A stretch of 64,000 nt of DNA from Pristionchus mayeri (taxonomy: Eukaryota; Nematoda; Chromadorea; Rhabditida; Neodiplogasteridae): the NCBI GenBank assembly GCA_036245805.1, contig BTRK01000004.1, positions 47,060,690 through 47,124,689 of the forward strand. Direction: 5' to 3'. The position numbers were made by a program, and so were the translations under genes. This document shows positions 8,742 through 44,076 of the stretch, in pieces. The notes beneath the pieces are model-generated. The model searched no databases. It worked only from the letters and a program-made list of their open reading frames with translations, and was not told the DNA's origin. Each line of letters starts with the position of its first letter. The stretch's first letter is position 1.

Positions 8742-8802
8742 AGCCTGATCAGCGCAACTTTGCGACTCCTGATAAATATTCTGTATTCTGTATTCTGTAT
8801 TC

Positions 8803-11800: not shown

Positions 11801-12039
11801 AATTTTTGAAAGTGTTGTATACTGCTCGTTCTTCACAAAGTGATCGACTTTCTCGATGCTAGCAAGCCGTATTCTTTGAAATAGAGCTGTATTATATACG
11901 GGGAAATGATCAGCACAGCCTGTTTATCATCTCTTCTTTTTAATGGGTCCCAGTCAGCGAACTTCGGTCGTCGACAAAATTTTGAAAGTGTTGTCTACTA
12001 CTCGTTCTTCACAAAATGATCAAGTTTATCGATGCCGGT
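8803..12039. repeat. 174-bp satellite array, right block
   Basis: A continuation of the same array in the same phase after the retrotransposon, about 18-19 copies, ending at a partial unit near 12,039. Local higher-order copies are visible: the rare CAGTCGCCGAACTTCGG variant occurs near 10,725 and 11,251, about three units apart. The TGTATTATATACGG monomer type is more frequent here than in the left block. Confidence 0.95.
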
Positions 12040-17403: not shown

Positions 17404-17592
17404 AATCATAAGGTAGCGGTGCAGGAAACTTTCGAACCCTAGTGACCTACTCCTCCCTCCATTCTAGTTGAACTTCGATCTTTCGCTATCCGACGTCACT
17501 TGGTACGTCGGATAGCGAAAGATCGAAGTTCAACTAGAATGGAGGGAGGAGTAGGTCACTAGGTTTCGAAAGTTTCCTGCACCGCTACCGTA
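17404..17592. repeat. Head-to-head palindrome that seeds the 125-bp satellite
   Basis: One inverted unit (AATCATAAGGTAGCGGTGC through CTATCCGACGTCACT) faces one direct unit (ACGTCGGATAGCG through CACCGCTACCGTATGATT), separated by about four bases near 17,502. The direct unit runs straight into the tandem array, and only this first unit has an inverted partner. The structure matches a palindromic transposable element whose right arm was amplified. Confidence 0.85.
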
Positions 17593-20500: not shown

Positions 20501-23500
20501 AATGATGTCGGAAAGCGAAAGATCAAAGTTCAACTAGAATGGAGGGAGGAGTAGGTCACTAGTGTTCGAAAGTTTCCTGCACCGCTACCGTATGATTAAA
20601 AAAAGCGTGCGTTGGCTCCGTAAAAAGTGACGTCGGGTAGCGAAAGATCAAAGTTCAACTAGAATGGAGGGAGGAGTAGGTCACTAGGGTTCGAAAGTTT
20701 CCTGCACCGCTACCGTATGATTAGAAAAAGCGTGCGTTGGCTCAGTGCCAAATGATGTCGGAAAGCGAAAGATCAAAGTTCAACTAGAATGGAGGGAGGA
20801 GTAGGTCACTAGGGTTCGAAAGTTTCCTGCACCGCTACCGTATGATTAGAAAAAGCGTGCGTTGGCTCCGTAAAAAGTGACGTCGGGTAGCGAAAGATCA
20901 AAGTTCAACTAGAATGGAGGGAGGAGTAGGTCACTAGGGTTCGAAAGTTTCCTGCACCGCTACCGTATGATTAGAAAAAGAGTGCGTTGGCTCAGTGCCA
21001 AATGATGTCGGAAAGCGAAAGATCAAAGTTCAACTAGAATGGAGGGAGGAGTAGGTCACTAGGGTTCGAAAGTTTCCTGCACCGCTACCGTATGATTAGA
21101 AAAAGCGTGCGTTGGCTCCGTAAAAAGTGACGTCGGGTAGCGAAAGATCAAAGTTCAACTAGAATGGAGGGAGGAGTAGGTCACTAGGGTTCGAAAGTTT
21201 CCTGCACCGCTACCGTATGATTAGAAAAAGAGTGCGTTGGCTCAGTGTCAAATGATGTCGGAAAGCGAAAGATCAAAGTTCAACTAGAATGGAGGGAGGA
21301 GTAGGTCACTAGGATTCGAAAGTTTCCTGCACCGCTACCGTATGATTAGAAAAAGCGTGCGTTGGTTCAGTGCCAAATGATGTCGGAAAGCGAAAGATCA
21401 AAGTTCAACTAGAATGGAGGGAGGAGTAGGTCACTAGTGTTCGAAAGTTTCCTGCACCGCTACCGTATGATTAAAAAAAGCGTGCGTTGGCTCAGTGCCA
21501 AATGATGTCGGAAAGCGAAAGATCAAAGTTCAACTAGAATGGAGGGAGGAGTAGGTCACTAGGGTTCGAAAGTTTCCTGCACCGCTACCGTATGATTAGA
21601 AAAAGCGTGCGTTGGCTCCGTAAAAAGTGACGTCGGGTAGCGAAAGATCAAAGTTCAACTAGAATGGAGGGAGGAGTAGGTCACTAGGGTTCGAAAGTTT
21701 CCTGCACCGCTACCGTATGATTAGAAAAGGCGTGCGTTGGCTCAGTGCCAAATGATGTCGGAAAGCGTAAGATCAAAGTTCAACTAGAATGGAGGGAGGA
21801 GTAGGTCACTAGGGTTCGAAAGTTTCCTGCACCGCTACCGTATGATTAGAAAAAGAGTGCGTTGGCTCAGTGCCAAATGATGTCGGAAAGCGAAAGACCA
21901 AAGTTCAACTAGAATGGAGGGAGGAGTAGGTCACTAGGGTTCGAAAGTTTCCTGCACCGCTACCGTATGATTAGAAAAAGAGTGCGTTGGCTCAGTGTCA
22001 AATGATGTCGGAAAGCGAAAGATCAAAGTTCAACTAGAATGGAGGGAGGAGTAGGTCACTAGGATTCGAAAGTTTCCTGCACCGCTACCGTATGATTAGA
22101 AAAAGCGTGCGTTGGCTCAGTGCCAAATGATGTCGGAAAGCGAAAGATCAAAGTTCAACTAGAATGGAGGGAGGAGTAGGTCACTAGTGTTCGAAAGTTT
22201 CCTGCACCGCTACCGTATGATTAAAAAAAGCGTGCGTTGGCTCCGTAAAAAGTGACGTCGGGTAGCGAAAGATCAAAGTTCAACTAGAATGGAGGGAGGA
22301 GTAGGTCACTAGGGTTCGAAAGTTTCCTGCACCGCTACCGTATGATTAGAAAAAGCGTGCGTTGGCTCAGTGCCAAATGATGTCGGAAAGCGAAAGATCA
22401 AAGTTCAACTAGAATGGAGGGAGGAGTAGGTCACTAGGGTTCGAAAGTTTCCTGCACCGCTACCGTATGATTAGAAAAAGCGTGCGTTGGCTCCGTAAAA
22501 AGTGACGTCGGGTAGCGAAAGATCAAAGTTCAACTAGAATGGAGGGAGGAGTAGGTCACTAGGGTTCGAAAGTTTCCTGCACCGCTACCGTATGATTAGA
22601 AAAAGAGTGCGTTGGCTCAGTGCCAAATGATGTCGGAAAGCGAAAGATCAAAGTTCAACTAGAATGGAGGGAGGAGTAGGTCACTAGGGTTCGAAAGTTT
22701 CCTGCACCGCTACCGTATGATTAGAAAAAGCGTGCGTTGGCTCCGTAAAAAGTGACGTCGGGTAGCGAAAGATCAAAGTTCAACTAGAATGGAGGGAGGA
22801 GTAGGTCACTAGGGTTCGAAAGTTTCCTGCACCGCTACCGTATGATTAGAAAAAGAGTGCGTTGGCTCAGTGCCAAATGATGTCGGAAAGCGAAAGATCA
22901 AAGTTCAACTAGAATGGAGGGAGGAGTAGGTCACTAGGGTTCGAAAGTTTCCTGCACCGCTACCGTATGATTAGAAAAAGCGTGCGTTGGCTCAGTGCCA
23001 AATGATGTCGGAAAGCGAAAGATCAAAGTTCAACTAGAATGGAGGGAGGAGTAGGTCACTAGGGTTCGAAAGTTTCCTACACCGCTACCGTATGATCCGA
23101 AAAAGAGTGCGTTGGCTCCGTAAAAAGTGACGTCGGGTAGCGAAAGATCAAAGTTCAACTAGAATGGAGGGAGGAGTGGGTCACTAGGGTTCGAAAGTTT
23201 CCTGCACCGCTACCGTATGATTAGAAAAGAGTGCGTTGGCTCAGTGCCAAATGATGTTGGAAAGCGAAAGATCAAAGTTCAACTAGAATGGAGGGAGGAG
23301 TGGGTCACTAGGGTTCGAAAGTTTCCTGCACCGCTACCGTATGATTCGAAAAAGCGTGCGTTGGCTCAGTGCCAAATGATGTTGGAAAGCGAAAGATCAA
23401 AGTTCAACTAGAATGGAGGGAGGAGTGGGTCACTAGGGTTCGAAAGTTTCCTGCACCGCTACCGTATGATCCGAAAAAGAGTGCGTTGGCTCAGTGTCAA

Positions 23501-26500
23501 ATGATGTCGGAAAGCGAAAGATCGAAGTTCAACTAGAATGGAGGGAGGAGTAGGTCACTAGGGTTCGAAAGTTTCCTGCACCGCTACCGTATGATTAGAA
23601 AAGAGTGCGTTGGCTCAGTGCCAAATGATGTTGGAAAGCGAAAGATCAAAGTTCAACTAGAATGGAGGGAGGAGTGGGTCACTAGGGTTCGAAAGTTTCC
23701 TGCACCGCTACCGTATGATTCGAAAAAGCGTGCGTTGGCTCAGTGCCAAATGATGTTGGAAAGCGAAAGATCAAAGTTCAACTAGAATGGAGGGAGGAGT
23801 GGGTCACTAGGGTTCGAAAGTTTCCTGCACCGCTACCGTATGATCCGAAAAAGAGTGCGTTGGCTCCGTAAAAAGTGACGTCGGGTAGCGAAAGATCAAA
23901 GTTCAACTAGAATGGAGGGAGGAGTAGGTCACTAGGGTTCGAAAGTTTCCTGCACCGCTACCGTATGATTAGAAAAAGAGTGCGTTGGCTCAGTGCCAAA
24001 TGATGTTGGAAAGCGAAAGATCGAAGTTCAACTAGAATGGAGGGAGGAGTAGGTCACTAGGGTTCGAAAGTTTCCTGCACCGCTACCGTATGATTAGAAA
24101 AAGAGTGCGTTGGCTCAGTGCCAAATGATGTCGGAAAGCGAAAGATCAAAGTTCAACTAGAATGGAGGGAGGAGTAGGTCACTAGGGTTCGAAAGTTTCC
24201 TGCACCGCTACCGTATGATTAGAAAAAGAGTGCGTTGGCTCAGTGTCAAATGATGTCGGAAAGCGAAAGATCAAAGTTCAACTAGAATGGAGGGAGGAGT
24301 AGGTCACTAGGATTCGAAAGTTTCCTGCACCGCTACCGTATGATTAGAAAAAGCGTGCGTTGGTTCAGTGCCAAATGATGTCGGAAAGCGAAAGATCAAA
24401 GTTCAACTAGAATGGAGGGAGGAGTAGGTCACTAGTGTTCGAAAGTTTCCTGCACCGCTACCGTATGATTAAAAAAAGCGTGCGTTGGCTCAGTGCCAAA
24501 TGATGTCGGAAAGCGAAAGATCAAAGTTCAACTAGAATGGAGGGAGGAGTAGGTCACTAGGGTTCGAAAGTTTCCTGCACCGCTACCGTATGATTAGAAA
24601 AAGCGTGCGTTGGCTCCGTAAAAAGTGACGTCGGGTAGCGAAAGATCAAAGTTCAACTAGAATGGAGGGAGGAGTAGGTCACTAGGGTTCGAAAGTTTCC
24701 TGCACCGCTACCGTATGATTAGAAAAAGAGTGCGTTGGCTCAGTGCCAAATGATGTCGGAAAGCGAAAGATCAAAGTTCAACTAGAATGGAGGGAGGAGT
24801 AGGTCACTAGGGTTCGAAAGTTTCCTGCACCGCTACCGTATGATTAGAAAAAGCGTGCGTTGGCTCAGTGCCAAATGATGTCGGAAAGCGAAAGATCAAA
24901 GTTCAACTAGAATGGAGGGAGGAGTAGGTCACTAGGGTTCGAAAGTTTCCTACACCGCTACCGTATGATCCGAAAAAGAGTGCGTTGGCTCCGTAAAAAG
25001 TGACGTCGGGTAGCGAAAGATCAAAGTTCAACTAGAATGGAGGGAGGAGTGGGTCACTAGGGTTCGAAAGTTTCCTGCACCGCTACCGTATGATTAGAAA
25101 AGAGTGCGTTGGCTCAGTGCCAAATGATGTTGGAAAGCGAAAGATCAAAGTTCAACTAGAATGGAGGGAGGAGTGGGTCACTAGGGTTCGAAAGTTTCCT
25201 GCACCGCTACCGTATGATTCGAAAAAGCGTGCGTTGGCTCAGTGCCAAATGATGTTGGAAAGCGAAAGATCAAAGTTCAACTAGAATGGAGGGAGGAGTG
25301 GGTCACTAGGGTTCGAAAGTTTCCTGCACCGCTACCGTATGATCCGAAAAAGAGTGCGTTGGCTCCGTAAAAAGTGACGTCGGGTAGCGAAAGATCAAAG
25401 TTCAACTAGAATGGAGGGAGGAGTAGGTCACTAGGGTTCGAAAGTTTCCTGCACCGCTACCGTATGATTAGAAAAAGAGTGCGTTGGCTCAGTGCCAAAT
25501 GATGTTGGAAAGCGAAAGATCGAAGTTCAACTAGAATGGAGGGAGGAGTAGGTCACTAGGGTTCGAAAGTTTCCTGCACCGCTACCGTATGATTAGAAAA
25601 AGAGTGCGTTGGCACAGTGCCAAATGATGTCGGAAAGCGAAAGATCAAAGTTCAACTAGAATGGAGGGAGGAGTAGGTCACTAGGGTTCGAAAGTTTCCT
25701 GCACCGCTACCGTATGATTAGAAAAAGCGTGCGTTGGCTCAGTGCCAAATGATGTCGGAAAGCGAAAGATCAAAGTTCAACTAGAATGGAGGGAGGAGTA
25801 GGTCACTAGGGTTCGAAAGTTTCCTGCACCGCTACCGTATGATTAGAAAAAGAGTGCGTTGGCTCAGTGCCAAATGATGTCGGAAAGCGGAAGATCAAAG
25901 TTCAACTAGAATGGAGGAAGGAGTAGGTCACTAGGGTTCGAAAGTTTCCTGCACCGCTACCGTATGATCCGAAAAAGAGTGCGTTGGCTCCGTAAAAAGT
26001 GACGTCGGGTAGCGAAAGATCAAAGTTCAACTAGAATGGAGGGAGGAGTAGGTCACTAGGGTTCGAAAGTTTCCTGCACCGCTACCGTATGATTAGAAAA
26101 AGCGTGCGTTGGCTCAGTGCCAAATGATGTCGGAAAGCGAAAGATCAAAGTTCAACTAGAATGGAGGGAGGAGTAGGTCACTAGAGTTCGAAAGTTTCCT
26201 GCACCGCTACCGTATGATCCGAAAAAGAGTGCGTTGGCTCCGTAAAAAGTGATGTCGGAAAGCGAAAGATCAAAGTTCAACTAGAATGGAGGGAGGAGTA
26301 GGTCACTAGGGTTCGAAAGTTTCCTGCACCGCTACCGTATGATCCGAAAAAGAGTGCGTTGGCTCCGTAAAAAGTGACGTCGGGTAGCGAAAGATCAAAG
26401 TTCAACTAGAATGGAGGGAGGAGTGGGTCACTAGGGTTCGAAAGTTTCCTGCACCGCTACCGTATGATCCGAAAAAGAGTGCGTTGGCTCCGTAAAAAGT

Positions 26501-29500
26501 GACGTCGGGTAGCGAAAGATCAAAGTTCAACTAGAATGGAGGGAGGAGTGGGTCACTAGGGTTCGAAAGTTTCCTGCACCGCTACCGTATGATTCGAAAA
26601 AGCGTGCGTTGGCTCAGTGCCAAATGATGTTGGAAAGCGAAAGATCGAAGTTCAACTAGAATGGAGGGAGGAGTAGGTCACTAGGGTTCGAAAGTTTCCT
26701 GCACCGCTACCGTATGATTAGAAAAAGAGTGCGTTGGCTCAGTGCCAAATGATGTTGGAAAGCGAAAGATCAAAGTTCAACTAGAATGGAGGGAGGAGTG
26801 GGTCACTAGGGTTCGAAAGTTTCCTGCACCGCTACCGTATGATTCGAAAAAGCGTGCGTTGGCTCAGTGCCAAATGATGTTGGAAAGCGAAAGATCGAAG
26901 TTCAACTAGAATGGAGGGAGGAGTGGGTCACTAGGGTTCGAAAGTTTCCTGCACCGCTACCGTATGATCCGAAAAAGAGTGCGTTGGCTCCGTAAAAGGT
27001 GACGTCGGGTAGCGAAAGATCAAAGTTCAACTAGAATGGAGGGAGGAGTAGGTCACTAGGGTTCGAAAGTTTCCTGCACCGCTACCGTATGATTAGAAAA
27101 AGCGTGCGTTGGCTCAGTGCCAAATGATGTCGGAAGCGAAAGATCAAAGTTCAACTAGAATGGAGGGAGGAGTAGGTCACTAGGGTTCGAAAGTTTCCTG
27201 CACCGCTACCGTATGATCCGAAAAAGAGTGCGTTGGCTCCGTAAAAAGTGACGTCGGGTAGCGAAAGATCAAAGTTCAACTAGAATGGAGGGAGGAGTAG
27301 GTCACTAGGGTTCGAAAGTTTCCTGCACCGCTACCGTATGATTAGAAAAAGAGTGCGTTGGCTCAGTGCCAAATGATGTTGGAAAGCGAAAGATCGAAGT
27401 TCAACTAGAATGGAGGGAGGAGTAGGTCACTAGGGTTCGAAAGTTTCCTGCACCGCTACCGTATGATTAGAAAAAGCGTGCGTTGGCTCAGTGCCAAAGG
27501 ATGTCGGAAAGCGAAAGATCAAAGTTCAACTAGAATGGAGGGAGGAGTAGGTCACTAGGGTTCGAAAGTTTCCTGCACCGCTACCGTATGATTAGAAAAA
27601 GAGTGCGTTGGCTCAGTGCCAAATGATGTCGGAAAGCGGAAGATCAAAGTTCAACTAGAATGGAGGAAGGAGTAGGTCACTAGGGTTCGAAAGTTTCCTG
27701 CACCGCTACCGTATGATCCGAAAAAGAGTGCGTTGGCTCCGTAAAAAGTGACGTCGGGTAGCGAAAGATCAAAGTTCAACTAGAATGGAGGGAGGAGTAG
27801 GTCACTAGGGTTCGAAAGTTTCCTGCACCGCTACCGTATGATTAGAAAAAGCGTGCGTTGGCTCAGTGCCAAATGATGTCGGAAAGCGAAAGATCAAAGT
27901 TCAACTAGAATGGAGGGAGGAGTAGGTCACTAGAGTTCGAAAGTTTCCTGCACCGCTACCGTATGATCCGAAAAAGAGTGCGTTGGCTCCGTAAAAAGTG
28001 ATGTCGGAAAGCGAAAGATCAAAGTTCAACTAGAATGGAGGGAGGAGTAGGTCACTAGGGTTCGAAAGTTTCCTGCACCGCTACCGTATGATCCGAAAAA
28101 GAGTGCGTTGGCTCCGTAAAAAGTGACGTCGGGTAGCGAAAGATCAAAGTTCAACTAGAATGGAGGGAGGAGTGGGTCACTAGGGTTCGAAAGTTTCCTG
28201 CACCGCTACCGTATGATCCGAAAAAGAGTGCGTTGGCTCCGTAAAAAGTGACGTCGGGTAGCGAAAGATCAAAGTTCAACTAGAATGGAGGGAGGAGTGG
28301 GTCACTAGGGTTCGAAAGTTTCCTGCACCGCTACCGTATGATTCGAAAAAGCGTGCGTTGGCTCAGTGCCAAATGATGTTGGAAAGCGAAAGATCGAAGT
28401 TCAACTAGAATGGAGGGAGGAGTAGGTCACTAGGGTTCGAAAGTTTCCTGCACCGCTACCGTATGATTAGAAAAAGAGTGCGTTGGCTCAGTGCCAAATG
28501 ATGTTGGAAAGCGAAAGATCAAAGTTCAACTAGAATGGAGGGAGGAGTGGGTCACTAGGGTTCGAAAGTTTCCTGCACCGCTACCGTATGATTCGAAAAA
28601 GCGTGCGTTGGCTCAGTGCCAAATGATGTTGGAAAGCGAAAGATCGAAGTTCAACTAGAATGGAGGGAGGAGTGGGTCACTAGGGTTCGAAAGTTTCCTG
28701 CACCGCTACCGTATGATCCGAAAAAGAGTGCGTTGGCTCCGTAAAAGGTGACGTCGGGTAGCGAAAGATCAAAGTTCAACTAGAATGGAGGGAGGAGTAG
28801 GTCACTAGGGTTCGAAAGTTTCCTGCACCGCTACCGTATGATTAGAAAAAGCGTGCGTTGGCTCAGTGCCAAATGATGTCGGAAGCGAAAGATCAAAGTT
28901 CAACTAGAATGGAGGGAGGAGTAGGTCACTAGGGTTCGAAAGTTTCCTGCACCGCTACCGTATGATCCGAAAAAGAGTGCGTTGGCTCCGTAAAAAGTGA
29001 CGTCGGGTAGCGAAAGATCAAAGTTCAACTAGAATGGAGGGAGGAGTAGGTCACTAGGGTTCGAAAGTTTCCTGCACCGCTACCGTATGATTAGAAAAAG
29101 CGTGCGTTGGCTCAGTGCCAAATGATGTCGGAAAGCGAAAGATCAAAGTTCAACTAGAATGGAGGGAGGAGTAGGTCACTAGGGTTCGAAAGTTTCCTGC
29201 ACCGCTACCGTATGATTAGAAAAAGAGTGCGTTGGCTCAGTGCCAAATGATGTCGGAAAGCGAAAGATCAAAGTTCAACTAGAATGGAGGGAGGAGTAGG
29301 TCACTAGGGTTCGAAAGTTTCCTGCACCGCTACCGTATGATTCGAAAAAGCGTGCGTTGGCTCAGTGCCAAATGATGTTGGAAAGCGAAAGATCGAAGTT
29401 CAACTAGAATGGAGGGAGGAGTAGGTCACTAGGGTTCGAAAGTTTCCTGCACCGCTACCGTATGATTAGAAAAAGCGTGCGTTGGCTCAGTGCCAAATGA

Positions 29501-32417
29501 TGTCGGAAAGCGAAAGATCAAAGTTCAACTAGAATGGAGGGAGGAATGGGTCACTAGGGTTCGAAAGTTTCCTGCACCGCTACCGTATGATTAGAAAAAG
29601 AGTGCGTTGGCTCAGTGCCAAATGATGTCGGAAAGCGAAAGATCAAAGTTCAACTAGAATGGAGGGAGGAGCAGGTCACTAGGGTTCGAAAGTTTCCTGC
29701 ACCGCTACCGTATGATCCGAAAAAGAGTGCGTTGGCTCAGTGCCAAATGATGTCGGAAAGCGAAAGATCAAAGTTCAACTAGAATGGAGGGAGGAGTAGG
29801 TCACTAGGGTTCGAAAGTTTCCTGCACCGCTACCGTATGATTAGAAAAAGAGTGCGTTGGCTCAGTGCCAAATGATGTCGGAAAGCGAAAGATCAAAGTT
29901 CAACTAGAATGGAGGGAGGAGTGGGTCACTAGGGTTCGAAAGTTTCCTGCACCGCTACCGTATGATTAGAAAAAGCGTGCGTTGGCTCAGTGCCAAATGA
30001 TGTCGGAAGCGAAAGATCAAAGTTCAACTAGAATGGAGGGAGGAGTAGGTCACTAGGGTTCGAAAGTTTCCTGCACCGCTACCGTATGATTAGAAAAAGC
30101 GTGCGTTGGCTCAGTGCCAAATGATGTCGGAAAGCGAAAGATCAAAGTTCAACTAGAATGGAGGGAGGAGTGGGTCACTAGGGTTCGAAAGTTTCCTGCA
30201 TCGCTACCGTATGGTTCGAAAAAGCGTGCGTTGGCTCAGTGTCAAATGATGTCGGAAAGCGAAAGATCGAAGTTCAACTAAAATGGAGGGAGGAGTGGGT
30301 CACTAGGGTTCGAAAGTTTCCTGCACCGCTACCGTATGATTAGAAAAAGAGTGCGTTGGCTCAGTGTCAAATGATGTCGGAAAGCGAAAGATCGAAGTTC
30401 AACTAGAATGGAGGGAGGAGTGGGTCACTAGGGTTCGAAAGTTTCCTGCACCGCTACCGTATGATTAGAAAAAGAGTGCGTTGGCTCAGTGCCAAATGAT
30501 GTCGGAAAGCGAAAGATCAAAGTTCAACTAGAATGGAGGGAGGAGTAGGTCACTAGGGTTCGAAAGTTTCCTGCACCGCTACCGTATGATTAGAAAAAGC
30601 GTGCGTTGGCTCAGTGCCAAATGATGTTGGAAAGCGAAAGATCGAAGTTCAACTAGAATGGAGGGAGGAGTAGGTCACTAGGGTTCGAAAGTTTCCTGCA
30701 CCGCTACCGTATGATTCGAAAAAGCGTGCGTTGGCTCAGTGTCAAATGATGTCGGAAAGCGAAAGATCGAAGTTCAACTAAAATGGAGGGAGGAGTGGGT
30801 CACTAGGGTTCGAAAGTTTCCTGCACCGCTACCGTATGATCCGAAAAAGAGTGCGTTGGCTCCGTAAAAAGTGACGTCGGGTAGCGAAAGATCAAAGTTC
30901 AACTAGAATGGAGGGAGGAGTGGGTCACTAGGGTTCGAAAGTTTCCTGCACCGCTACCGTATGATTAGAAAAAGAGTGCGTTGGCTCAGTGCCAAATGAT
31001 GTTGGAAAGCGAAAGATCGAAGTTCAACTAGAATGGAGGGAGGAGTAGGTCACTAGGGTTCGAAAGTTTCCTGCACCGCTACCGTATGATTAGAAAAAGA
31101 GTGCGTTGGCTCAGTGCCAAATGATGTCGGAAAGCGAAAGATCAAAGTTCAACTAGAATGGAGGGAGGAGCAGGTCACTAGGGTTCGAAAGTTTCCTGCA
31201 CCGCTACCGTATGATCTGAAAAAGAGTGCGTTGGCTCCGTAAAAAGTGACGTCGGGTAGCGAAAGATCAAAGTTCAACTAGAATGGAGGGAGGAGTAGGT
31301 CACTAGGGTTCGAAAGTTTCCTGCACCGCTACCGTATGATTAGAAAAAGAGTGCGTTGGCTCAGTGCCAAATGATGTCGGAAAGCGAAAGATCAAAGTTC
31401 AACTAGAATGGAGGGAGGAGTAGGTCACTAGGGTTCGAAAGTTTCCTGCACCGCTACCGTATGATCCGAAAAAGAGTGCGTTGGCTCCGTAAAAAGTGAC
31501 GTCGGGTAGCGAAAGATCAAAGTTCAACTAGAATGGAGGGAAGAGTAGGTCACTAGGGTTCGAAAGTTTCCTGCACCGCTACCGTATGATTAGAAAAAGC
31601 GTGCGTTGGCTCAGTGCCAAATGATGTCGGAAAGCGAAAGACCAAAGTTCAACTAGAATGGAGGGAGGAGTAGGTCACTAGGGTTCGAAAGTTTCCTGCA
31701 CCGCTACCGTATGATTCGAAAAAGCGTGCGTTGGCTCAGTGACAAATGATGTTGGAAAGCGAAAGATCGAAGTTCAACTAGAATGGAGGGAGGAGTAGGT
31801 CACTAGGGTTCGAAAGTTTCCTGCACCGCTACCGTATGATTAGAAAAAGAGTGCGTTGGCTCAGTGTCAAATGGTGTCGGAAAGCGAAAGATCGAAGTTC
31901 AACTAGAATGGAGGGAGGAGTGGGTCACTAGGGTTCGAAAGTTTCCTGCACCGCTACCGTATGATTAGAAAAAGAGGGCGTTGGCTCAGTGCCAAATGAT
32001 GTCGGAAAGCGAAAGACCAAAGTTCAACTAGAATGGAGGGAGGAGTAGGTCACTAGGGTTCGAAAGTTTCCTGCACCGCTACCGTATGATTCGAAAAAGC
32101 GTGCGTTGGCTCAGGGCCAAATGATGTTGGAAAGCGAAAGATCGAAGTTCAACTAGAATGGAGGGAGGAGTAGGTCACTAGGGTTCGAAAGTTTCCTGCA
32201 CCGCTACCGTATGATTGGAAAAAGAGTGCGTTGGCTCAGTGCCAAATGATGTCGGAAAGCGAAAGATCAAAGTTCAACTAGAATGGAGGGAGGAGCAGGT
32301 CACTAGGGTTCGAAAGTTTCCTGCACCGCTACCGTATGATCCGAAAAAGAGTGCGTTGGCTCCGTAAAAAGTGACGTCGGGTAGCGAAAGATCAAAGTTC
32401 AACTAGAATGGAGGGAG
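17503..32417. repeat. 125-bp satellite array with higher-order repeats
   Basis: About 119 head-to-tail copies at very high identity; CAACTAGAATGGAGGGAGG recurs every 125 bp (for example at 17,531, 17,656 and 17,781). Two monomer classes differ in a window of about 25 bp: one reads CAGTGCCAAATGATGTCGGA and the other CCGTAAAAAGTGACGTCGGG. Rare variants recur at fixed distances: 1,625 bp (13 units; 19,739 and 21,364), 1,749 bp (13 full units plus one 124-bp unit; 27,131 and 28,880) and about 1,873 bp (23,217 and 25,090). The array ends abruptly inside a unit at 32,417. No gene lies within it. Confidence 0.97.
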
Positions 32418-33927: not shown

Positions 33928-34470
33928 TACAATCAAAAATATCATAAAGATGTATCAAAAAACACGCGATCTGACATGAAAACAGGAAAATAGCAAAAAA
34001 AGCACGTTCTCAAATTTAACCAAAAAAGTTTTCCCGGGGTAAAAAAGGACGATGAATTCGAATCTGAAATAATCTCTCAGGTAAAAGAGATAATATTTTT
34101 CAGGACATGCATTTTTATGCATTTTTGCGAATTCAAATAAACAAATTTTTGAAAATTTCGGCATTTCATTGTTGTTCAATAGATTTATTGTAAACATCGA
34201 AATTATTCTACCCGACGAGGCGGTCATTTTGCTGTTTTGATCTACTTTTTTACACAACTTTGAAGGAATATATGATGCTTTGAAATTTCGAAATTACCAG
34301 GGCCGGATTTTAGGCAGTTTTGAATTTACGGCCCCACCGAGTTAACTGAAAGTTACTAGGCCTCAGGTACACTAACCACCAAAAGGGTATTCAGATTGAA
34401 GCACTTCGAACAGTTTGTCAAATAGGAGTCTCGATTTCATGCAATCAATCAGAAGACCTCTGATATATAT
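33928..34470. other. AT-rich spacer, no gene supported
   Basis: A 100-codon open frame on the minus strand (33,955-34,257) has no recognisable motif. Nothing else seen. Confidence 0.45.
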
Positions 34471-36721
34471 CGTGCACCGAGTCCACATTGAAGAAACATG
34501 TTCCATAATGTTCCATAGTGGAACATTTTTTTCCATGTTTTTCCATTTTCGAAATTCTATATTAAAATGGATGAACTGATGGCTGTATTTGTGTGCGGAG
34601 CTTCAATACTTTATTTTTAATCGATTTGTGTGAAAAAAGAAGAGAAAATATTCATTAATTTATTATTTGAGCTATTTCAGCAAAAAATCCTATAATTGGC
34701 ATTTTGCGATCGCTAAAAGTTTACTACAGAGCAGGTTACGGTACTCACTGGTCTTTCGTGAGTTGTTCTCTTTTATCTTTGCCTATTCCCGCATTCACTT
34801 TTTTCGGAGTTTCTAATCAATAATTCACTGCTTTCTATTGATTATTTGCTGCAATTCCATGTCCTCATATCACCACCAGAGTATCCGCCTCTGTTCAATG
34901 CCCTGTTCGCTTTCAAAAACCGCGTCATTTAGCTAACTTCATTGTTTAATTGCAATTGCTCTGTTTTTGTGTTCATATATTGGACGCCCATGCATGTTTC
35001 ACTGCCCACTACTCTTACTTAGCATGCGCCGTGTTCGTGTTTAGTCGATATTCAAACTTTGACTCTGGGAAAATCGATTTATAGTATGTTTTTTTGAGGC
35101 CACTTTTCACGCGTGGTTTGCTTGCTCTTCGCCAAGTTGTTTTCCCCTGTATTGTTCGATTTTCGTGCTGTTTAAATTTAAATATTCTAGTATGAACCGC
35201 ACTCTTGGATTCCGTCGCCTCGCTGTCCGCGCCACCCAGCAGACGCGCGCCTCCTCTGGCAGTTCACGCCCGCCGACAGCACCATGACCACCTGGAGAAA
35301 GGTACGCCTCCTTGACGTTACACTATTAGTCCATTCCATCCCTGGTCAATCAACGTATTTATTCATTTCGCTTGGTTATGTATAATAGCTTGATTAATTG
35401 ACTGGAACTGTAAAATTATCACTATTAGTAAGGGAACGCCGTCAAGAAGTCGCAGTTTTTAAATAAATGCTCGAATTTAATGGAATTCCGTTCCAGATCT
35501 TCTACGTCGCTTCTCTCCCGTGCCTCGCCCTCACCATGTACGCCGCCTTCACGGTATGCTTTATTTTATTTGATTTTTTATAAAAGTTGTTTTTATATTG
35601 GGTGAAACCACCTTTATGTTGTTGTTATCCTCAAATTTTTTAATGCCCTCTTGCACTTCTTACGGAGACAGCTTCAAAATAATGTTGTTACACTGCTGCA
35701 TTTTGCAATATAGGTGATTCTATCATATTCCTCTTTTCCAGGACCACGCGAAGCACGGGAGTCAGCTAGCCCTACCTCAACGTGCGCAACAAGGTTATTT
35801 TTCATTTATTTATTTAAATTTGTGCGGTTTGCTCACTTTCGAGAAACGATTATGCACGTTCGTAACCTTATTTTTATGAGAGAACTTGAAACGTCCTTGT
35901 TATTGTCCGTTGGTGTGCACAAGCTGTTGATAGAGAAATAAGTTGCAAGCAACCATAGTCATAGTTACTGCATTTTGTTTGAATCTTTATCTAATCTGCA
36001 TTAATCCTACTCCGTTTGAAGCATTTCCCTTGGGGCGACGGCAACCACTCCCTCGTCCACAACAAGAGCGAGCAGTGCGTGCCCGGAGTGGGCTTTGAGG
36101 AGGACCGCAAGCACCACTAGAGGAGCAACGAGTAGATGGAGGTGAGTTGCTTATCGTCTTCCAGTAACGCGTGACCCTACTCGCATTGCTGTTCTACTTT
36201 CTTTGGAGCATAAATCTAATTAGTGAAACATTAAAATTACTGGGACTTGACATCGTATTGTATTTAGTCCATTATTGAATCAAGAATCTTGATGCGATTA
36301 TATTTTCGATTGTAAAGGTGTGATAAGCTGAACACGATTGTGACTACTACCTAACAATTTCCCTCATTAGAAAAATTCATGCAATCCAAACAATATTTGT
36401 TCCAGGCAGTCTCGGATCACTCGACGAGGATAAAGGAATCCCCCCCCTCCCCTCCCCTCCCTCCAATTAGTGACCCCCCAATGTGATTAGGAGAACATCC
36501 GATTATTTTGGACTGATTTATTGCCCCCATTCCCTCTCTTGTTGTTTAGTATGATAACTAGGTTATTATATGTTATCAAATCACTGTTATTGCTTCGGCA
36601 ATTTCATTGTATTTGTAAATTAGTAAATTCTTTACGCTATTTTTTTAGTTTGAGCCCCGGGGACACAAGTACGGATTCCAGTTAGACTACACATTGTGCA
36701 ACTTAGGCGATCGTGTACATT
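34471..36721. repeat. Left 2.25-kb inverted arm
   Basis: Reverse complement of 40,362-42,617. The start codon of the COX6A copy lies 721 bp from this outer end and 722 bp from the other, showing the arms match almost base for base. The inner boundary is near GGCGATCGTGTACAT; just outside it the right arm has a short 7-bp insertion. A pyrimidine tract (CCCCTCCCCTCCC near 36,447) is shared by both arms. Confidence 0.93.
35192..36120 (+). pseudogene. COX6A (cytochrome c oxidase subunit VIa) pseudogene, left arm
   Basis: COX6A is a nuclear-encoded single-helix subunit of mitochondrial complex IV. Exons: 35,192-35,301 (MNRTLGFRRLAVRATQQTRA, a mitochondrial presequence, then FTPADSTMTTWRK), 35,497-35,553 (IFYVASLPCLALTMYAAFT, the membrane helix), 35,742-35,793 (DHAKHGS, then PYLNVRNK) and 36,022-36,120 (HFPWGDGNHSLVHNKSEQCV and a short tail). 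The FPWGDGNHSL block is diagnostic. Splice sites are all canonical. Two defects break the frame: one in exon 1 between the Ser-rich stretch and FTPADST, and one in exon 3, where PYLNVRNK is preceded by an in-frame TAG. A functional COX6A must exist elsewhere. Confidence 0.9.
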
Positions 36722-36845
36722 AGGTCACATCGTAGAAACATCTTTATTGCAATTTTTTGACACATCGGCGACAAACGATTACGATAGAGATTCGACGATA
36801 TAACAATTGATATATTCATCGTGAAAACAGTAGATAGAATGTAAA

Positions 36846-38250
36846 CTAGTCTTTAACGGGCTTTCCATCTACTTCAATGACTCTTCTCATTTGGGTGTGC
36901 ACATGTCGAATGTAATTTTGGCATTTATCGGCAGTGAGCACGTTCGTCCAGAACTCGTTGATTCCCTCTACTAGGTGGGGCACGTTAGTGGGCTTCCAAG
37001 TCGTCTTGAGATATCGCTTCATTTCTCCCCAGACCAACTCCACAGGATTGAGGTCTGGGGATTCTGCAGGCCAGTCCTCTGTCTTCAATGATTAGGGTTA
37101 TTTTTATATCTCTCAACTAGAATCACAATGTTTACTTTCTTCAAGTTCTCTACCGAGTGCCCTTTATCATGCAGATCAGAAATAGTACCTCGATCTCCTC
37201 CCTTTTGAGGAACTCCTTGGTTATGTTTGCTTTATGACAGGGCGCATTGTCCTGCACCAGCAATGACTTCCCTCCGAAGTTCTCCCTAAAACGTGAGTCT
37301 TTTCTTCGGATGTAGTTACATTTTGTTTTAGTATTTCCGATAATTCAGACTATTATGAGTATTTATACGATACTTACACACCTTTCCCACTCCACGTATC
37401 CGTCCCTGAGGATCTTGCAGTACTCGACTGCATCGACTCGGCATGAACCATCAAGGACAACCAGGTTGGTCGGGCCTTTCCAAGAGATCCCACCCCACAC
37501 AAGCACCTCAATCAGACACATTTAATTCACAATTGAGATATACTCCAACCTTCTGAGGGTGCTTGAAGGTACTTTTGATGCGTATATCCCTTGCCGTAGA
37601 CAACACCCAGACCTTCCTTGAGTTGGAATCGAGTTGAATCATCCGTGAAGATGTGCTTCCGGAAGGTACAGTTCTCCTCGATTCGTGCCTTGCACCAGTC
37701 GACTCGAGGTTGGCGATTCGCCAGACGGACTGAGTGACCATATCTCACGTCCAGATTGACATAGCCAATCTCCTTCCTGATCCTTTCCACTGGGTACTCG
37801 GATAGCTGAAATAGAAATAATTGGGAAAACAAGTGATTGTGTGTACCTGCAGGCCGAATTCTGTCTCGATGGATTGGAGAAGAGACGAGAGAGTAATCTC
37901 GTCGTCGTCCTCGTACATCTTCGCGATGTGAGACCGAACGGCAGGGTACAGATCGGGAGGGATGGTCTCAGGTCGAGGACAGTAGTCCTTCTCCAGCTTG
38001 GGTGGGAGGGCAAGAAGACGCTGAATGGTCGCGGGGAGACCACATGGCCCATGGCAAGAAGGCGCCTATAAGGGATTTCCGTATAAGGGATTCCTTGATC
38101 ATCCCATCCCACTAAGCAGTCCTTCCATGTCTTGTCCACGTTCTGTTCAAGTTATTAATGTTCACGTGTGAAAGGAGATGATAAAATATCGATGCTAAAT
38201 ACGCACAATGCTTGCCAGGGATTGCGCCATTGTAAGATGAACTCGTTTCC
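36846..38250 (-). pseudogene. Tc1/mariner/IS630-type DDE transposase, frame-broken
   Basis: Read on the minus strand. N-terminal helix-turn-helix-like region: GWDDQGIPYTEIPYRRLLAM, then TIQRLLALPPKLEKDYCPRP, then IETEFGLQLSEYPVERIRKE. Catalytic part: HIFTDDSTRFQL (first Asp), KHPQK joined over a 43-nt intron to VLVWGGISWKGPTNLVVLDG (exon ending 37,382), SLLVQDNAPCHKANITKEF (second Asp; exon 37,285-37,189) and DWPAESPDLNPVELVWGEMK (Glu; last exon from about 37,088). The DDE triad is thus visible. At least three small indels break the frame, for instance after AMGHVVSP, before SSLLQSIETEFG and before STFKHPQK, so the copy is probably inactive. Short introns lie between the exons. The start is uncertain; a possible first exon begins near 38,249. 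Confidence 0.85.
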
Positions 38251-38315
38251 AACGAAGAATGGAGAGTACCTGGAATGTGTACATAGAGATGAGTATGCAT
38301 TGCATTGTTTCATAG

Positions 38316-40221
38316 ATGTCGGTTATTATGCTTATCGATGGGGATTTCGAACTAGTCGACCGCAGTTCTCTCAAGAAAGGAAGTGTCGAGGGTCTGGGCG
38401 AGAAATGCTACTTCGAGTATCACGGTGTGAGAAAGGAGGGCATATTCTGCCAGGGAGGTTTCCATAAGGCAATGGAGAAGGAACTGGGAAACTGGAGAGA
38501 TGGGATAAAAACGATCGACAATCAACGGAAGAAGAAAGATCTGGTTAGCCAATTACAAAGTGATATTGAATGAACGGTTCGCAGAAGCGAACTGTCATCG
38601 TTCGGGGAAAGTCGGTGGAAGTGGCGGTGAGAGAGAAGAGGAAGAAGGGATCAGGTAGGTCGTTCCTTCCATCACAAATCGCACGTGAAATATCAGATGA
38701 TGATCTAGTAGCAGTGGAGAAGAAGGTCAAGGTTGTTAAAGGTAAGTTTTCACTCTCGTTTTGTGCTAGAACTGTGAATTCAGGGGGAGCAGGGACAATG
38801 AAAGGAGAGAATGTGAGGCCTTCCCGATCTGCAGGAGGTTAGATTTTCGAATATTGCACGGTTTCTGGAGAGGTAGTATTCAGGAGATGGAACTGGTGAT
38901 GATCTCAGTGGTCTTTCCCAGATGATGGTCAGATTGAATAGTGGGGAATCCACAGGAGATGGACGACCAGGTTAAATGAAATGATAATTTATCTCAATAC
39001 AAGACATAGATTCGTCCAAATCTCGGAAAGTGGGTCGGAGTGTGGAGAGGGCATCGAACCGGAGCCCGACCCCTGTGCTGGAGGACGATTCGGAGGAGGA
39101 GGAGGGAGCTGCACCCGATCTATCAGGACTGAGCGGGGATGGAGCAATCTGTAAGAATTCCTTTGTTTATGATATGGAGCGTTTCATTTATAAGTGATCT
39201 ACCTACATGCTGGGCAATAGCCGATTCAGGGAGAGAGATAAAGGGAGAAGTCAAACCTTTTCTTCAGTGCTCGCAGCAGTGCAGGCGATGGGGAGCACTT
39301 TCGGGAAGCAGATGAAGGCACTCGAGAAGAAATTCGACGACGGCATGAGAAAAGTCAATGCCAGAATCGACCGCCTGGAGGGTCAAGCTGATGAGATCGC
39401 CGATGCAGTTGAGGGACAGCGAGCTATGGTCAGTACTGTAGCACACACTGGAATCCAGAATAGCAGAGAATGCAAATGAATTCGTTATAATATCATTACT
39501 CTGTACATCTAGGTTCGCCAAGTGGCATCTGCTACTCCCTCCATAGTAGCAAATGCTCAGAAGGCCGCGCAAGGCACGGGGGACAATCAAGGATATGATG
39601 CCTGCCCCACCAAAAGGTTCTCTACTTAGTATTATTGTAAGTCAAAAGTATCCTACAGACTTTGTCTACAAGTACCTGTCGATGGAAGAGGTGGCTGTGA
39701 TGGATGAGAACAACAAAGAACTCTTGTCGTTTGCGAACGCGCTCGACAAGAGCTTGTTCACTCTCAAAGAGCGAAGACTCTCTATAAAAGACAGAGATCA
39801 AGTCAAATGGAACTGGCTGAAGAATGTAAGACGTTAAGTTATTTTTTTAAAAAAATGGCTCACCTTTTACATACCATTCTCCTTGCAGTGTCTTCTCCAC
39901 CTCCGTAGATTCGGAATTGGACTGAGGGGAAAGGACGGAGAGATGATCGCCATTGGAGCAGTGAGGAAGCGACTCAATTCATACGCTTCACTAAGAAGAA
40001 TACAGTTCGAAAAGAATGGGATTGGGATGGACGAAGTGGAGGGAGAGGGGATTGAGGAGATAGGAGGGGAGAATGGTATGGACGAGGATGAGGAAGAAGG
40101 TCCAGAAGGAGTGGACAATGTGGCTGACGAAGGAGATCACACGGGAGAGAACATGGGAGGATACCCGGTAGAGAATCCCCCTATCCAGAGAAAGGGTAGC
40201 AGAGAATATTTGCAACTCTAA
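38316..40221 (+). CDS. Second gene of the composite element: acidic coiled-coil protein
   Basis: A multi-exon gene divergent from the transposase, with starts under 100 bp apart. Likely exons: 38,316-38,543 (MSVIMLIDGDFELVDRSSLK), 38,585-38,741, 38,784-38,837, 38,884-38,970, 39,004-39,150 (acidic, EDDSEEEEGAAPD), 39,221-39,428 (coiled coil: KQMKALEKKFDDGMRKVNAR), about 39,514-39,827 and 39,890-40,221 (LRRFGIGLRGKDGEMIAIGA, then an acidic tail). The first five exons join in frame; exon 6 and the following exon each need a one-base shift, so the copy may be dead. The C-terminal stretch KYLSMEEVAVMDENNKELLS to LNSYASLRRIQF loosely recalls BEN-type DNA-binding domains, but I would not assign it. 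A DNA-binding or accessory role in transposition is inference. Confidence 0.6.
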
Positions 40222-40361
40222 GCCCTACTCTCCATTATAGATGTTCCCATAGTAAGGTCGTCGCTGTTAATTCTGTGAATTATGTTACTGTATCGTCTTT
40301 TTTTCCATCGTAATGATCCCAATGTCTTCCAAGGTTCTGAGAAACGTTAAATAGATGGGAT

Positions 40362-42617
40362 GTACACGATCGCCTAATTTGCCTATTGCACAATGTGTAG
40401 TCTAACTGGAATCCGTACTTGTGTCCCCGAGGCTCAAACTAAAAAAATAGCGTAAAGAATTTACTAATTTACAAATACAATGAAATTGCCGAAGCAATAA
40501 CAGTGATTTGATAACATATAATAACCTAGTTATCATACTAAACAACAAGAGAGGGAATGGGGGCAATAAATCAGTCCAAAATAATCGGATGTTCTCCTAA
40601 TCACATTGGGGGGTCACTAATTGGAGGGAGGGGAGGGGAGGGGGGGGATTCCTTTATCCTCGTCGAGTGATCCGAGACTGCCTGGAACAAATATTGTTTG
40701 GATTGCATGAATTTTTCTAATGAGGGAAATTGTTAGGTAGTAGTCACAATCGTGTTCAGCTTATCACACCTTTACAATCGAAAATATAATCGCATCAAGA
40801 TTCTTGATTCAATAATGGACTAAATACAATACGATGTCAAGTCCCAGTAATTTTAATGTTTCACTAATTAGATTTATGCTCCAAAGAAAGTAGAACAGCA
40901 ATGCGAGTAGGGTCACGCGTTACTGGAAGACGATAAGCAACTCACCTCCATCTACTCGTTGCTCCTCTAGTGGTGCTTGCGGTCCTCCTCAAAGCCCACT
41001 CCGGGCACGCACTGCTCGCTCTTGTTGTGGACGAGGGAGTGGTTGCCGTCGCCCCAAGGGAAATGCTTCAAACGGAGTAGGATTAATGCAGATTAGATAA
41101 AGATTCAAACAAAATGCAGTAACTATGACTATGGTTGCTTGCAACTTATTTCTCTATCAACAGCTTGTGCACACCAACGGACAATAACAAGGACGTTTCA
41201 AGTTCTCTCATAAAAATAAGGTTACGAACGTGCATAATCGTTTCTCGAAAGTGAGCAAACCGCACAAATTTAAATAAATAAATGAAAAATAACCTTGTTG
41301 CGCACGTTGAGGTAGGGCTAGCTGACTCCCGTGCTTCGCGTGGTCCTGGAAAAGAGGAATATGATAGAATCACCTATATTGCAAAATGCAGCAGTGTAAC
41401 AACATTATTTTGAAGCTGTCTCCGTAAGAAGTGCAAGAGGGCATTAAAAAATTTGAGGATAACAACAACATAAAGGTGGTTTCACCCAATATAAAAACAA
41501 CTTTTATAAAAAATCAAATAAAATAAAGCATACCGTGAAGGCGGCGTACATGGTGAGGGCGAGGCACGGGAGAGAAGCGACGTAGAAGATCTGGAACGGA
41601 ATTCCATTAAATTCGAGCATTTATTTAAAAACTGCGACTTCTTGACGGCGTTCCCTTACTAATAGTGATAATTTTACGGTTCCAGTCAATTAATCAAGCT
41701 ATTATACATAACCAAGCGAAATGAATAAATACGTTGATTGACCAGGGATGGAATGGACTAATAGTGTAACGTCAAGGAGGCGTACCTTTCTCCAGGTGGT
41801 CATGGTGCTGTCGGCGGGCGTGAACTGCCAGAGGAGGTGCGCGTCTGCTGGGTGGCGCGGACAGCGAGGCGACGGAATCCAAGAGTGCGGTTCATACTAG
41901 AATATTTAAATTTAAACAGCACGAAAATCGAACAATACAGGGGAAAACAACTTGGCGAAGAGCAAGCAAACCACGCGTGAAAAGTGGCCTCAAAAAAACA
42001 TACTATAAATCGATTTTCCCAGAGTCAAAGTTTGAATATCGACTAAACACGAACACGGCGCATGCTAAGTAAGAGTAGTGGGCAGTGAAACATGCATGGG
42101 CGTCCAATATATGAACACAAAAACAGAGCAATTGCAATTAAACAATGAAGTTAGCTAAATGACGCGGTTTTTGAAAGCGAACAGGGCATTGAACAGAGGC
42201 GGATACTCTGGTGGTGATATGAGGACATGGAATTGCAGCAAATAATCAATAGAAAGCAGTGAATTATTGATTAGAAACTCCGAAAAAAGTGAATGCGGGA
42301 ATAGGCAAAGATAAAAGAGAACAACTCACGAAAGACCAGTGAGTACCGTAACCTGCTCTGTAGTAAACTTTTAGCGATCGCAAAATGCCAATTATAGGAT
42401 TTTTTGCTGAAATAGCTCAAATAATAAATTAATGAATATTTTCTCTTCTTTTTTCACACAAATCGATTAAAAATAAAGTATTGAAGCTCCGCACACAAAT
42501 ACAGCCATCAGTTCATCCATTTTAATATAGATTTTCGAAAATGGAAAAACATGGAAAAAAATGTTCCACTATGGAACATTATGGAACATGTTTCTTCAAT
42601 GTGGACTCGGTGCACGA
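40362..42617. repeat. Right 2.25-kb inverted arm
   Basis: Reverse complement of the left arm. The differences seen are single bases or a few bases (for example TTTTACGG here against CTGTAAAA on the other arm, and GCGCACCTCC against GCGCGCCTCC in exon 1 of the COX6A copy) plus a 7-bp insertion near the inner end. Such similarity implies recent duplication or continuing gene conversion. Confidence 0.93.
40968..41895 (-). pseudogene. COX6A pseudogene, right arm
   Basis: Inverted copy of the pseudogene at 35,192-36,120, with the same four exons, the same introns and both of the same frame defects. Because the defects are shared, they arose before the arms were duplicated, or were spread by conversion. 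One silent-type base change lies in exon 1. Protein landmarks are identical (membrane-helix exon IFYVASLPCLALTMYAAFT and last exon with FPWGDGNHSL). Confidence 0.9.
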
Positions 42618-43063
42618 TAAAGCGCAGTGTCCGTCTGTCCGTTTGACCGGATTGCGAAACAGTTGCGAAACGATTACGAAATGGGAGGGAGAGAGATCGC
42701 GTCAACATGTTGCGAAACCTAGATACCCCGCTAGGACGGGGCCCCCGCCGAAGGCGGGGCAGCGGGACTAGTATGAAATAAGATATTCTAAAATTGTCAA
42801 CTGAAAACGGCGATTTGTCCTGATTCTTTCGTGAGAGGCCTGATGTGCACATTGAAGATAGTTATTTATTGTTAAGGCATCCCTTGACGTTATGAGGATT
42901 TACCTATCGTTAAAAAGTAAATGCAATCGTTCCAAACTCACAATAGTATATCCTGACCACTGCATGATTGTGTCTCGATATTGTCGTTTTGTTTCTTCGA
43001 TATGCGAATTCCTTCTGCTTTACAATCTGCAAAATATGGACACAACTTAGTAACAATATTATT
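42618..43063. other. Spacer with GC-rich hairpin
   Basis: At 42,728-42,770 the sequence CCCCGCTAGGACGGGG is followed by CCCCCGCCGAAGGCGGGG and CAGCGGGACTAG, giving nested GC-rich hairpins unlike the AT-rich surroundings. Probably the end of another dispersed repeat. No gene supported in the stretch. Confidence 0.5.
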
Positions 43064-44076
43064 ATGAGCCCAGTTGCCTAAGAGTCGGACAATGTCCGGC
43101 ACAGCAAAATTTCGAAAATTTGGGAAAAGGGGTTCTCGAGGGTGCTGATCATCGTGGTCAGCTTCATTTTGCACCATCTCGATCGGTTGAACCAGGCTGC
43201 AAGGGTGCACTACCTCCTTTTCAAGTCATATCTCGGGAACCGATAACTGAAAATACTTCAAAATTGCCCAGTCGCCAGATAATAGTAATATGAATCTGAA
43301 GCAAGATAAATTTCGAATTTTGAAATTTTATGCAAATCCAATTTTTTTCGATCTCGAATATAAGGTTCGGGGGAAAAAACGAACTATACCGGCAGATGCA
43401 CCTTGTTCTGGGGATCATTTTTTCGGATACATAGTGGGGTAAAATAACTAGGGTTGAATGCGCTACAATTTATTTGCTGATGCTATTGGTTGCTGATCTC
43501 TTTGAGTGGAAAATGGAAAATGAGATGAGTTTCAACAAGATTGATGACATAATTAAATATTTTGAGTTCCCTTCAAAATTTAATAGTATAGAATGAATGA
43601 AACTCACTTAAACTTCATGAAATTAACCAAGCTGAGGGGTAAAACGCAACATAAAATAAATTGTAGCGCATTCAACCCTATTTATTATACTCCACTATGT
43701 ACCCGAAAAATGATCCCCAGAACAAGGTGCATCTGCCGGTATAGTTCGCTTTTTTCTCCCTAACATTATATTCGAGATCGAAAAAAATTGGATTTGCATA
43801 AAATTTCACAATTGGAAATTTATCTTGCGTCAGATTCATATTACTATTATCTGGCGACTGGGCAATTTTGAAGTATTTTCAGTTATCGGTTCCCGAGATA
43901 TGACTTGAAAAGGAGGTAGTGCACCCTTGCAGCCTGGTTCAACCGATCGAGATGGTGCAAAATGAAGTAGACCACGATGATCAGCTTCCTCGAGAACCCT
44001 TTTCCCAAATTTTCGAAATTTTGCTGTTCCAGACTCTATTAAACATTGTCCGATTCTTACACAACCGGCCTCTTAT
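43064..44076. mobile_element. 1-kb foldback element (family F), copy 2
   Basis: Inverted arms of about 420 bp around a loop of about 180 bp. The left end reads TGAGCCCAGTTGCCTAAGAG and the right end is a diverged inverse (TTACACAACCGGCCTCT). The subterminal order matches copy 1 at 14,735: GTCCGGCAC, GGTGCTGATCAT, TTCATTTTGCACCA, TCTCGGGAACC. The inner halves differ from copy 1. It lies about 170 bp beyond the stop codon of the CCP-like gene, outside its coding exons. Confidence 0.85.

Follow-up and report, generated by a model that had tools for sequence, protein, structure and literature searches.

Tc1-like elements are usually about 1.3–2.4 kb long, with one gene between terminal inverted repeats of tens to hundreds of bases. 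The subject of the present analysis is an 8,148-bp unit of the nematode Pristionchus mayeri, found in a 64,000-nucleotide stretch (positions 47,060,690 to 47,124,689 of contig BTRK01000004.1, assembly GCA_036245805.1), hereafter the window. Like Tc1 and Sleeping Beauty, the family to which this unit belongs has a DD34E transposase, a TA target-site duplication and terminal inverted repeats, but, unlike the usual Tc1-like elements, its members are mostly 8–11 kb long and combine two genes with kilobase arms, into which pieces of host genes, among them the respiratory-chain gene COX6A, have been incorporated. The unit in the window is very probably a defective member of a young P. mayeri family of two-gene Tc1-like elements, mobilized by cut-and-paste at TA, which has captured COX6A.

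Host sequences within the repeats of a DNA transposon have been described before. Turmoil-1, a Harbinger element of Caenorhabditis elegans, harbors pieces of two unrelated genes, rsp-2 (with an intron) and cpg-3, in its inverted terminal repeats, on both sides; the captured pieces do not keep the reading frame, and one predicted gene derives from a copy (Sela et al., 2008, PMC2572040). It is 5,024 bp long, with 760-bp repeats and captures of 205 and 131 bp, and is present as one complete copy and eight fragments (PMC2572040), so that the principle of host genes in terminal repeats is already known. As in Turmoil-1, the P. mayeri family has two host gene pieces within its inverted terminal repeats; unlike Turmoil-1 as described there, it has a Tc1-type transposase and TA, with neither the Harbinger transposase nor the usual 3-bp duplication, arms of about 1.8–3.6 kb, captures of about 1 kb each, and 25 copies at 23 sites. 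In animals more generally, 370 Pack-TIRs have been reported from 100 animals, 115 of them TcMariner and four multicopy in reference genomes (Tan et al., 2021, PMC8277862), with short captures (median 224 bp) in mostly degenerate elements. The P. mayeri family shares with Pack-TIRs and with Ssk-FB4 of Drosophila cut-and-paste transposition and host copies made at the DNA level, for which microhomology-guided template switching has been proposed (PMC8277862); it differs from most Pack-TIRs in being multicopy and in its open transposase frames, and its own cargo lies within the terminal repeats. Plant Mutator-like elements and Pack-MULEs also combine long repeats, rearranged and duplicated, with captured gene fragments; they belong to another superfamily, and the cargo lies between the repeats in the plant cases seen in that source (PMC3310237).

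The unit in the window and its copies in the genome

The unit spans positions 34470–42617 of the window, with a TA dinucleotide on each side (34468–34469 and 42618–42619), and reads 5'-TA followed by TCGTGCACCGAGTCC... at its left end and ...GGACTCGGTGCACGA followed by TA-3' at its right end. Its left arm (34470–36720, plus strand, outer tip TCGTGCACCGAGTCC) and its right arm (40360–42617, minus strand) are terminal inverted repeats of the type designated S below. With the TA included, 34468–36720 and the reversed 42619–40360 are 99.5% identical over 2,260 columns, far above chance, and no other inverted pair of at least 30 bp was found within the unit. Each arm contains a four-exon COX6A copy oriented inward. 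The core consists of two divergently arranged genes, a six-exon Tc1-type (DD34E) transposase gene (36846–38230, minus strand) and a second gene, gene 2 (38316–40221, plus strand), whose predicted coiled-coil product has 479–494 amino acids in other copies. The transposase gene is frameshifted in the window by a 1-bp and an 8-bp deletion and gene 2 is frameshifted as well, so that this copy is not autonomous. The original prediction, made from the window alone, had described TA-flanked ends, near-identical 2.25-kb arms, a core with a DDE transposase and a second gene, and a whole mitochondrial gene copy in each arm with the same two frame defects. The ends, the arms and the common defects, which are losses in exons 1 and 3, are as it stated; both core genes are present but frameshifted, and the COX6A copies are whole in exon-intron layout but not in coding sequence.

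The published P. mayeri assembly, built from PacBio HiFi and Hi-C data (290.8 Mb; PMC11544036), was searched in full (73 contigs) with the outer 130 bp, the COX6A stretch of the arm and the core separately, the best 40 candidates being scored for the first two; the DNA search ignores very common words. A 30-base pattern of the tip (up to 3 mismatches) gave 49 matches genome-wide, all in these elements, and none when reversed as a control, while a COX6A exon-4 pattern (up to 2 mismatches) gave 72 matches, 70 inside elements and 2 elsewhere. Combining the tip, exon-4, core and arm searches, 25 assembled copies with arms and core were recovered, of which 20, the window copy included, were read and the remaining five were read at their ends. 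TA is present at both ends in 25/25. The flanks of copy C11 are the same as those of C2_34.71, and those of C30 the same as those of C2_34.63, which leaves 23 distinct insertion sites. The separate searches with ends, arm and core thus yielded 25 units, each flanked by TA, and support the assignment of the window unit to one mobile element family, whose movement is deduced from sequence comparison.

The copies are 6.6–10.8 kb long (19 measured), and eight of the 19 measure 10.15–10.17 kb, the commonest length, which the window copy does not reach. Arms occur in two types, S and B. Some copies are near-identical: between C5_8.45 and C11 the core differs by 0.08%, there are 2 substitutions plus 7 gap columns over 1.7 kb of the S arm, and the B arms are separated by a single gap without any substitution. 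Part of one tip region is absent from C2_34.63 and from its second assembly copy, C30, and the left tip of C1_39.37 has a 48-bp tandem duplication (C1:39375662–39375739).

An empty site, in which the flanks meet over one TA, lies at C3:32136701–32137250; none had been present among the sequences collected before it was found. Its halves match the left flank of C3_32.20 (274 bp, 100%) and the reversed left flank of C3_32.33 (262 bp, 100%). The elements beside these halves are now 132 kb from each other, a separation that suggests either a misjoin or recombination between copies that inverted the sequence. The left flank of the window unit (34269–34468) is itself a repeat (1,046 first-look candidates, best 40 scored); used as a probe it revealed no empty site, and, in the four relatives examined, the repeat stops at the point of insertion.

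In C11, the six exons of the transposase gene encode 346 amino acids with D, D and E in DD34E spacing (34 residues between the D of QDNAPCH and the E of NPVE, by manual count). It matches Pfam DDE_3 (PF13358, 5.4e-19) and Sleeping Beauty (PDB 5cr4, 6.9e-20), as well as PF01498 at 6e-5, under the cut-off of that family. A related DDE transposase together with the TA target-site duplication places the family among the Tc1-like (DD34E) elements. The 346-amino-acid frame is open in 13 of 19 copies, eight of them with all splice sites canonical and five with one altered donor site, and it is broken or truncated in the other six, among which is the window copy; the set of 19 excludes C4_12.45, which has little of the core.

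Host gene cargo in two types of arm

In the left arm of the window unit the COX6A exons lie on the plus strand at 35192–35301 (exon 1), 35497–35553 (exon 2), 35742–35793 (exon 3) and 36022–36120 (exon 4, with the stop codon), and they are mirrored on the minus strand of the right arm at 41786–41895, 41534–41590, 41294–41345 and 40967–41065, respectively. A search with the COX6A family profile gave no match in the P. mayeri genome nor in 14 control genomes, probably because the exons are short, and a pattern search was used instead. COX6A sequence, in some cases partial, is present in 40/40 arms of the 20 copies read, and exon 4 in the other five copies. The host genes are a tandem pair, G1 and G2, at C3:2.317–2.324 Mb; G2 shares 87% identity with cox-6A of P. 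pacificus, and the more diverged G1 (P0083) shares 74% with G2. Relative to G2, both arms lack 51 bp and another 1 bp of exon 1 and 20 bp of exon 3 (manual count). Exon 3 is out of the host frame in all 39 arms that keep it (52, 55 or 58 bp vs 72, manual count), and the element copies are therefore pseudogenes. The gene from which they are least diverged is G2: synonymous (dS) and nonsynonymous (dN) divergence from it are 0.17 and 0.036 for the B arm (exons 1, 2 and 4) and 0.11 and 0.047 for the window S arm, against a dS of 0.44 between the B arm and G1. These values were computed without exon 3 and without the stretch lost from exon 1, and compare an S string that is the window left arm with a B string that combines the commonest exon variants rather than representing one copy. 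The retained introns support a capture at the DNA level, as the original prediction held, and for the same reason an origin as a retrocopy was rejected.

The original prediction of one captured respiratory-chain gene, which holds for COX6A, has to be extended by a second host gene in the longer arms. B arms are 1.4 kb longer, and have a striatin-matching piece (PF08232, 5.2e-9; striatin-3, 1.8e-18) between two 211-bp direct repeats with COX6A exon 4 (92%). About 1.0 kb of this piece aligns, exons and introns alike, to the host striatin gene (C6:21.163 Mb), at 78.6% in 650 columns and at 75.1% in 410, and a short TAG is shared between the two at the right junction (by eye). The 24 places with this piece were assigned manually to 19 of the 25 elements; the window copy lacks it. 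Parent-like COX6A and striatin genes thus lie elsewhere in the host genome and the same capture recurs at 23 sites, as in transduplication. By arm type, the 25 copies comprise 6 S/S, 14 S/B and 5 B/B, as read in 20 copies and inferred from the searches in five.

Proposed origin of the family and its alternatives

The ancestor would have had long arms and a divergent pair of genes, the transposase and the coiled-coil gene 2. A genomic COX6A with its introns would have been copied into one arm, most likely by template switching during the repair of a break or gap in the element, and we propose that copying of one arm onto the other brought the cargo into both. In a like event, one lineage would have acquired a 1.0–1.2-kb striatin piece in its arm, flanked on each side by a copy of the COX6A exon-4 segment. 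Arms would later have been swapped between the lineages, and the mosaic S/B elements would then have reached many sites. We infer movement, template switching, a single capture with copying to the other arm, and a cargo that is a passive passenger.

Several observations weigh against this account. Mobility is deduced from sequence, capture intermediates were not found, and the empty site, whose halves lie next to elements separated by 132 kb, may reflect a misjoin in the assembly. Between the core lineages, transposase dN/dS is 0.28–0.57 with only 3–7 synonymous changes, so that selection on this gene is unclear. The S arms of S/B copies are 1.2% apart on average (10 of the 12 used), and more than one exchange is possible. 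Finally, the host COX6A introns do not align with those of the element, and the striatin introns, compared with the first exon masked only roughly, differ from the host by about 27%, the difference being 8/237 in three exon stretches (a fourth, poorly aligned exon being excluded). It follows that neither present host gene is the direct donor. In both cargoes the exons are much closer to the host genes than the introns are, which suggests that much of the divergence probably arose before capture, in a donor gene under selection and on a lineage distinct from that of the present host alleles; the synonymous sites of the striatin exons are unexpectedly conserved (dS 0.057 vs about 27% in introns). 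The donor may have been another species, and an old P. mayeri allele is likewise possible. Host-like exons with foreign introns in both COX6A and striatin have also led to a bolder reading, in which an active, autonomous two-gene element collects host genes in its arms, doubles them by arm copying and has brought them into P. mayeri from another Pristionchus lineage; we regard this as conceivable but doubtful.

It is unlikely that COX6A was captured twice, independently for each arm type, rather than once with later divergence and exchange. The S and B arms of C11 do differ, by 3–11 positions per 100 bp at positions 500–1000 and by 24 and 14 per 100 bp at 1400–1600, and exon 1 is nearer to G2 in S, exon 4 in B. 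The two types nevertheless share their introns and their exon-1 and exon-3 losses relative to G2, which favors one capture, and the 24% patch arises because the S sequence there corresponds to the inner rather than the outer of the two exon-4 copies in the B arm, so that its reading as plain divergence near intron 3 was dropped.

The S arm is on the transposase side in 12/12 S/B copies read (11 distinct insertions), which fits one exchange followed by spread, and the S arms of S/B copies differ by 1.5% from those of S/S copies. The cores form two lineages, 4.7–5.9% apart and at most 1.2% apart within (19 copies), and divergence between them is uneven, from 0–1.3% in the transposase part (to about 37900) to as much as 26% in gene 2, which argues for exchange between core lineages too. 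Within a single S/S element the arms are 0–8 substitutions apart in 1,331 bp (19 in C4_43.05), against 5–19 between the left arms of different elements. Private changes common to both arms are found in four of the six S/S elements (2, 3, 4 and 3) and in none of the other two; changes private to one arm number 3 in the window copy, 0 in C4_12.45 and C3_38.03, 5 in C3_38.05, 4 in C2_4.59 and 13 in C4_43.05. Taken together, the shared and the one-arm changes make it likely that the arms are homogenized, though incompletely.

Selection might in principle keep the cargo, if COX6A supplied a promoter, an antisense transcript or a mitochondrial peptide, but there is little probability of this. The frame of exon 1 is open in the B arm, whose exon 4 retains host residues, the P. 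mayeri gene model PMAYCL1PPCAC_33383 (P0087) matches a B-arm copy by eye, and dN between the B arm and G2 is low relative to dS. The last point can be explained by constraint before capture; moreover, exon 3 is out of frame wherever it is kept, exon 1 is frameshifted in the S arm, and exon 2 is lost from both arms of both B/B copies read.

Gene 2 matched no Pfam family at a meaningful score, and its relatives at E ≤ 1e-3 are confined to P. mayeri and P. fissidentatus (best 7,998 candidates). The predicted structure of a P. fissidentatus relative contains a long coiled coil but is of low confidence, with a mean predicted local distance difference test score of 45. Disregarding insertions, gene 2 is open throughout in 9 of 19 copies; C4_43.05 also has it open if a 41-nucleotide intron is removed. 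Between the two core lineages dS is 0.25, dN 0.04 and dN/dS 0.16–0.18, read in the columns of C2_2.94 with insertions relative to that copy left uncounted, which points to purifying selection. With a 56-amino-acid gene 2 probe, 41 further weak places were found (31–36% identity, single E-values 0.03–0.94), and 75 places with transposase paralogues are listed in the genome. Among the weak places, 21/41 lie 1.5–3.1 kb from a transposase-paralogue place, all 21 in divergent orientation (chance expectation 0.08), and the other 20 have no paralogue at that distance. A paralogous element at C5:31656382–31662235 (5,854 bp) has TA on both sides, the TATCGT start of the family, 1.28-kb arms that are 85% alike, a transposase 50% identical over 57 residues, and a divergent open frame whose likeness to gene 2 is visible by eye but gave no tblastn match (E 0.01); COX6A gave no tblastn match in this element at E ≤ 1. 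The gene 2-transposase pairs and this long-armed relative without COX6A indicate that the two-gene plan, and the long arms in at least the relative on C5, probably predate the capture. A sequence within the joined left flank of C3_38.03 resembles, by eye, the reversed tip of this related long-armed family (TATCGTACATGTC...), so that two elements of this kind are probably adjacent.

The same relative bears on the view that the arms define a mobile unit of their own, a foldback-type long-armed element with a separate Tc1-like element inserted in its middle. The arms are indeed very long for Tc1/mariner, and the transposase and gene 2 could form their own unit; nevertheless this view is very improbable, since 27/27 core and 49/49 tip matches fall inside the 25 elements, the related element is likewise bounded by arms of its own (1.28 kb) and begins with TATCGT, and the unit contains no further inverted pair of at least 30 bp. 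It was rejected because neither a solo core nor a solo tip was found in the search, which skips common words. The least credible alternative, raised with the original prediction, is a palindromic host duplication or assembly artefact around a smaller element, and although assembly is difficult in long near-identical palindromes, a misjoin may explain why the flanks of the empty site are split, and two assembled copies duplicate the flanks of others, it hardly accounts for 25 TA-flanked units at 23 distinct sites in a HiFi-based assembly (PMC11544036) that kept apart the unlike S and B arms of 14/25 copies (12 read, C1_39.37 and C30 inferred).

Neighborhood of the unit and significance of the family

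The surroundings of the unit in the window are rich in repeats. An array of about 119 copies of a 125-bp satellite unit (17507–32417; 14.9 kb, 94% matches) ends about 2 kb upstream of the element, and a 174-bp satellite forms two further arrays, at 898–5876 (with a 350-bp period as well) and at 8802–12034. On the other side, 0.5 kb beyond the right arm, lies a 0.94-kb inverted repeat (43094–44034; 95% over 383 bp) that resembles a foldback or a miniature inverted-repeat transposable element.

Among the open-licence papers listed in the literature searches, in which the 115 TcMariner Pack-TIRs were not singly checked, no report was seen of a Tc1/mariner element whose terminal repeats contain host genes. 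Within that literature, what seems new is the Tc1-like superfamily, the size and number of the captures in the arms, and a set of copies that records arm exchanges. For the annotation of P. mayeri, at least one predicted gene, PMAYCL1PPCAC_33383, appears to be transposon cargo rather than a host gene. In this multicopy animal family, near-identical copies allow capture, doubling into both repeats, arm exchange and recent spread to be traced, which makes the mechanism of capture testable. A Tc1-like clade with a second gene that, from its substitution pattern, appears to be under purifying selection would also bear on what such elements require in order to move.

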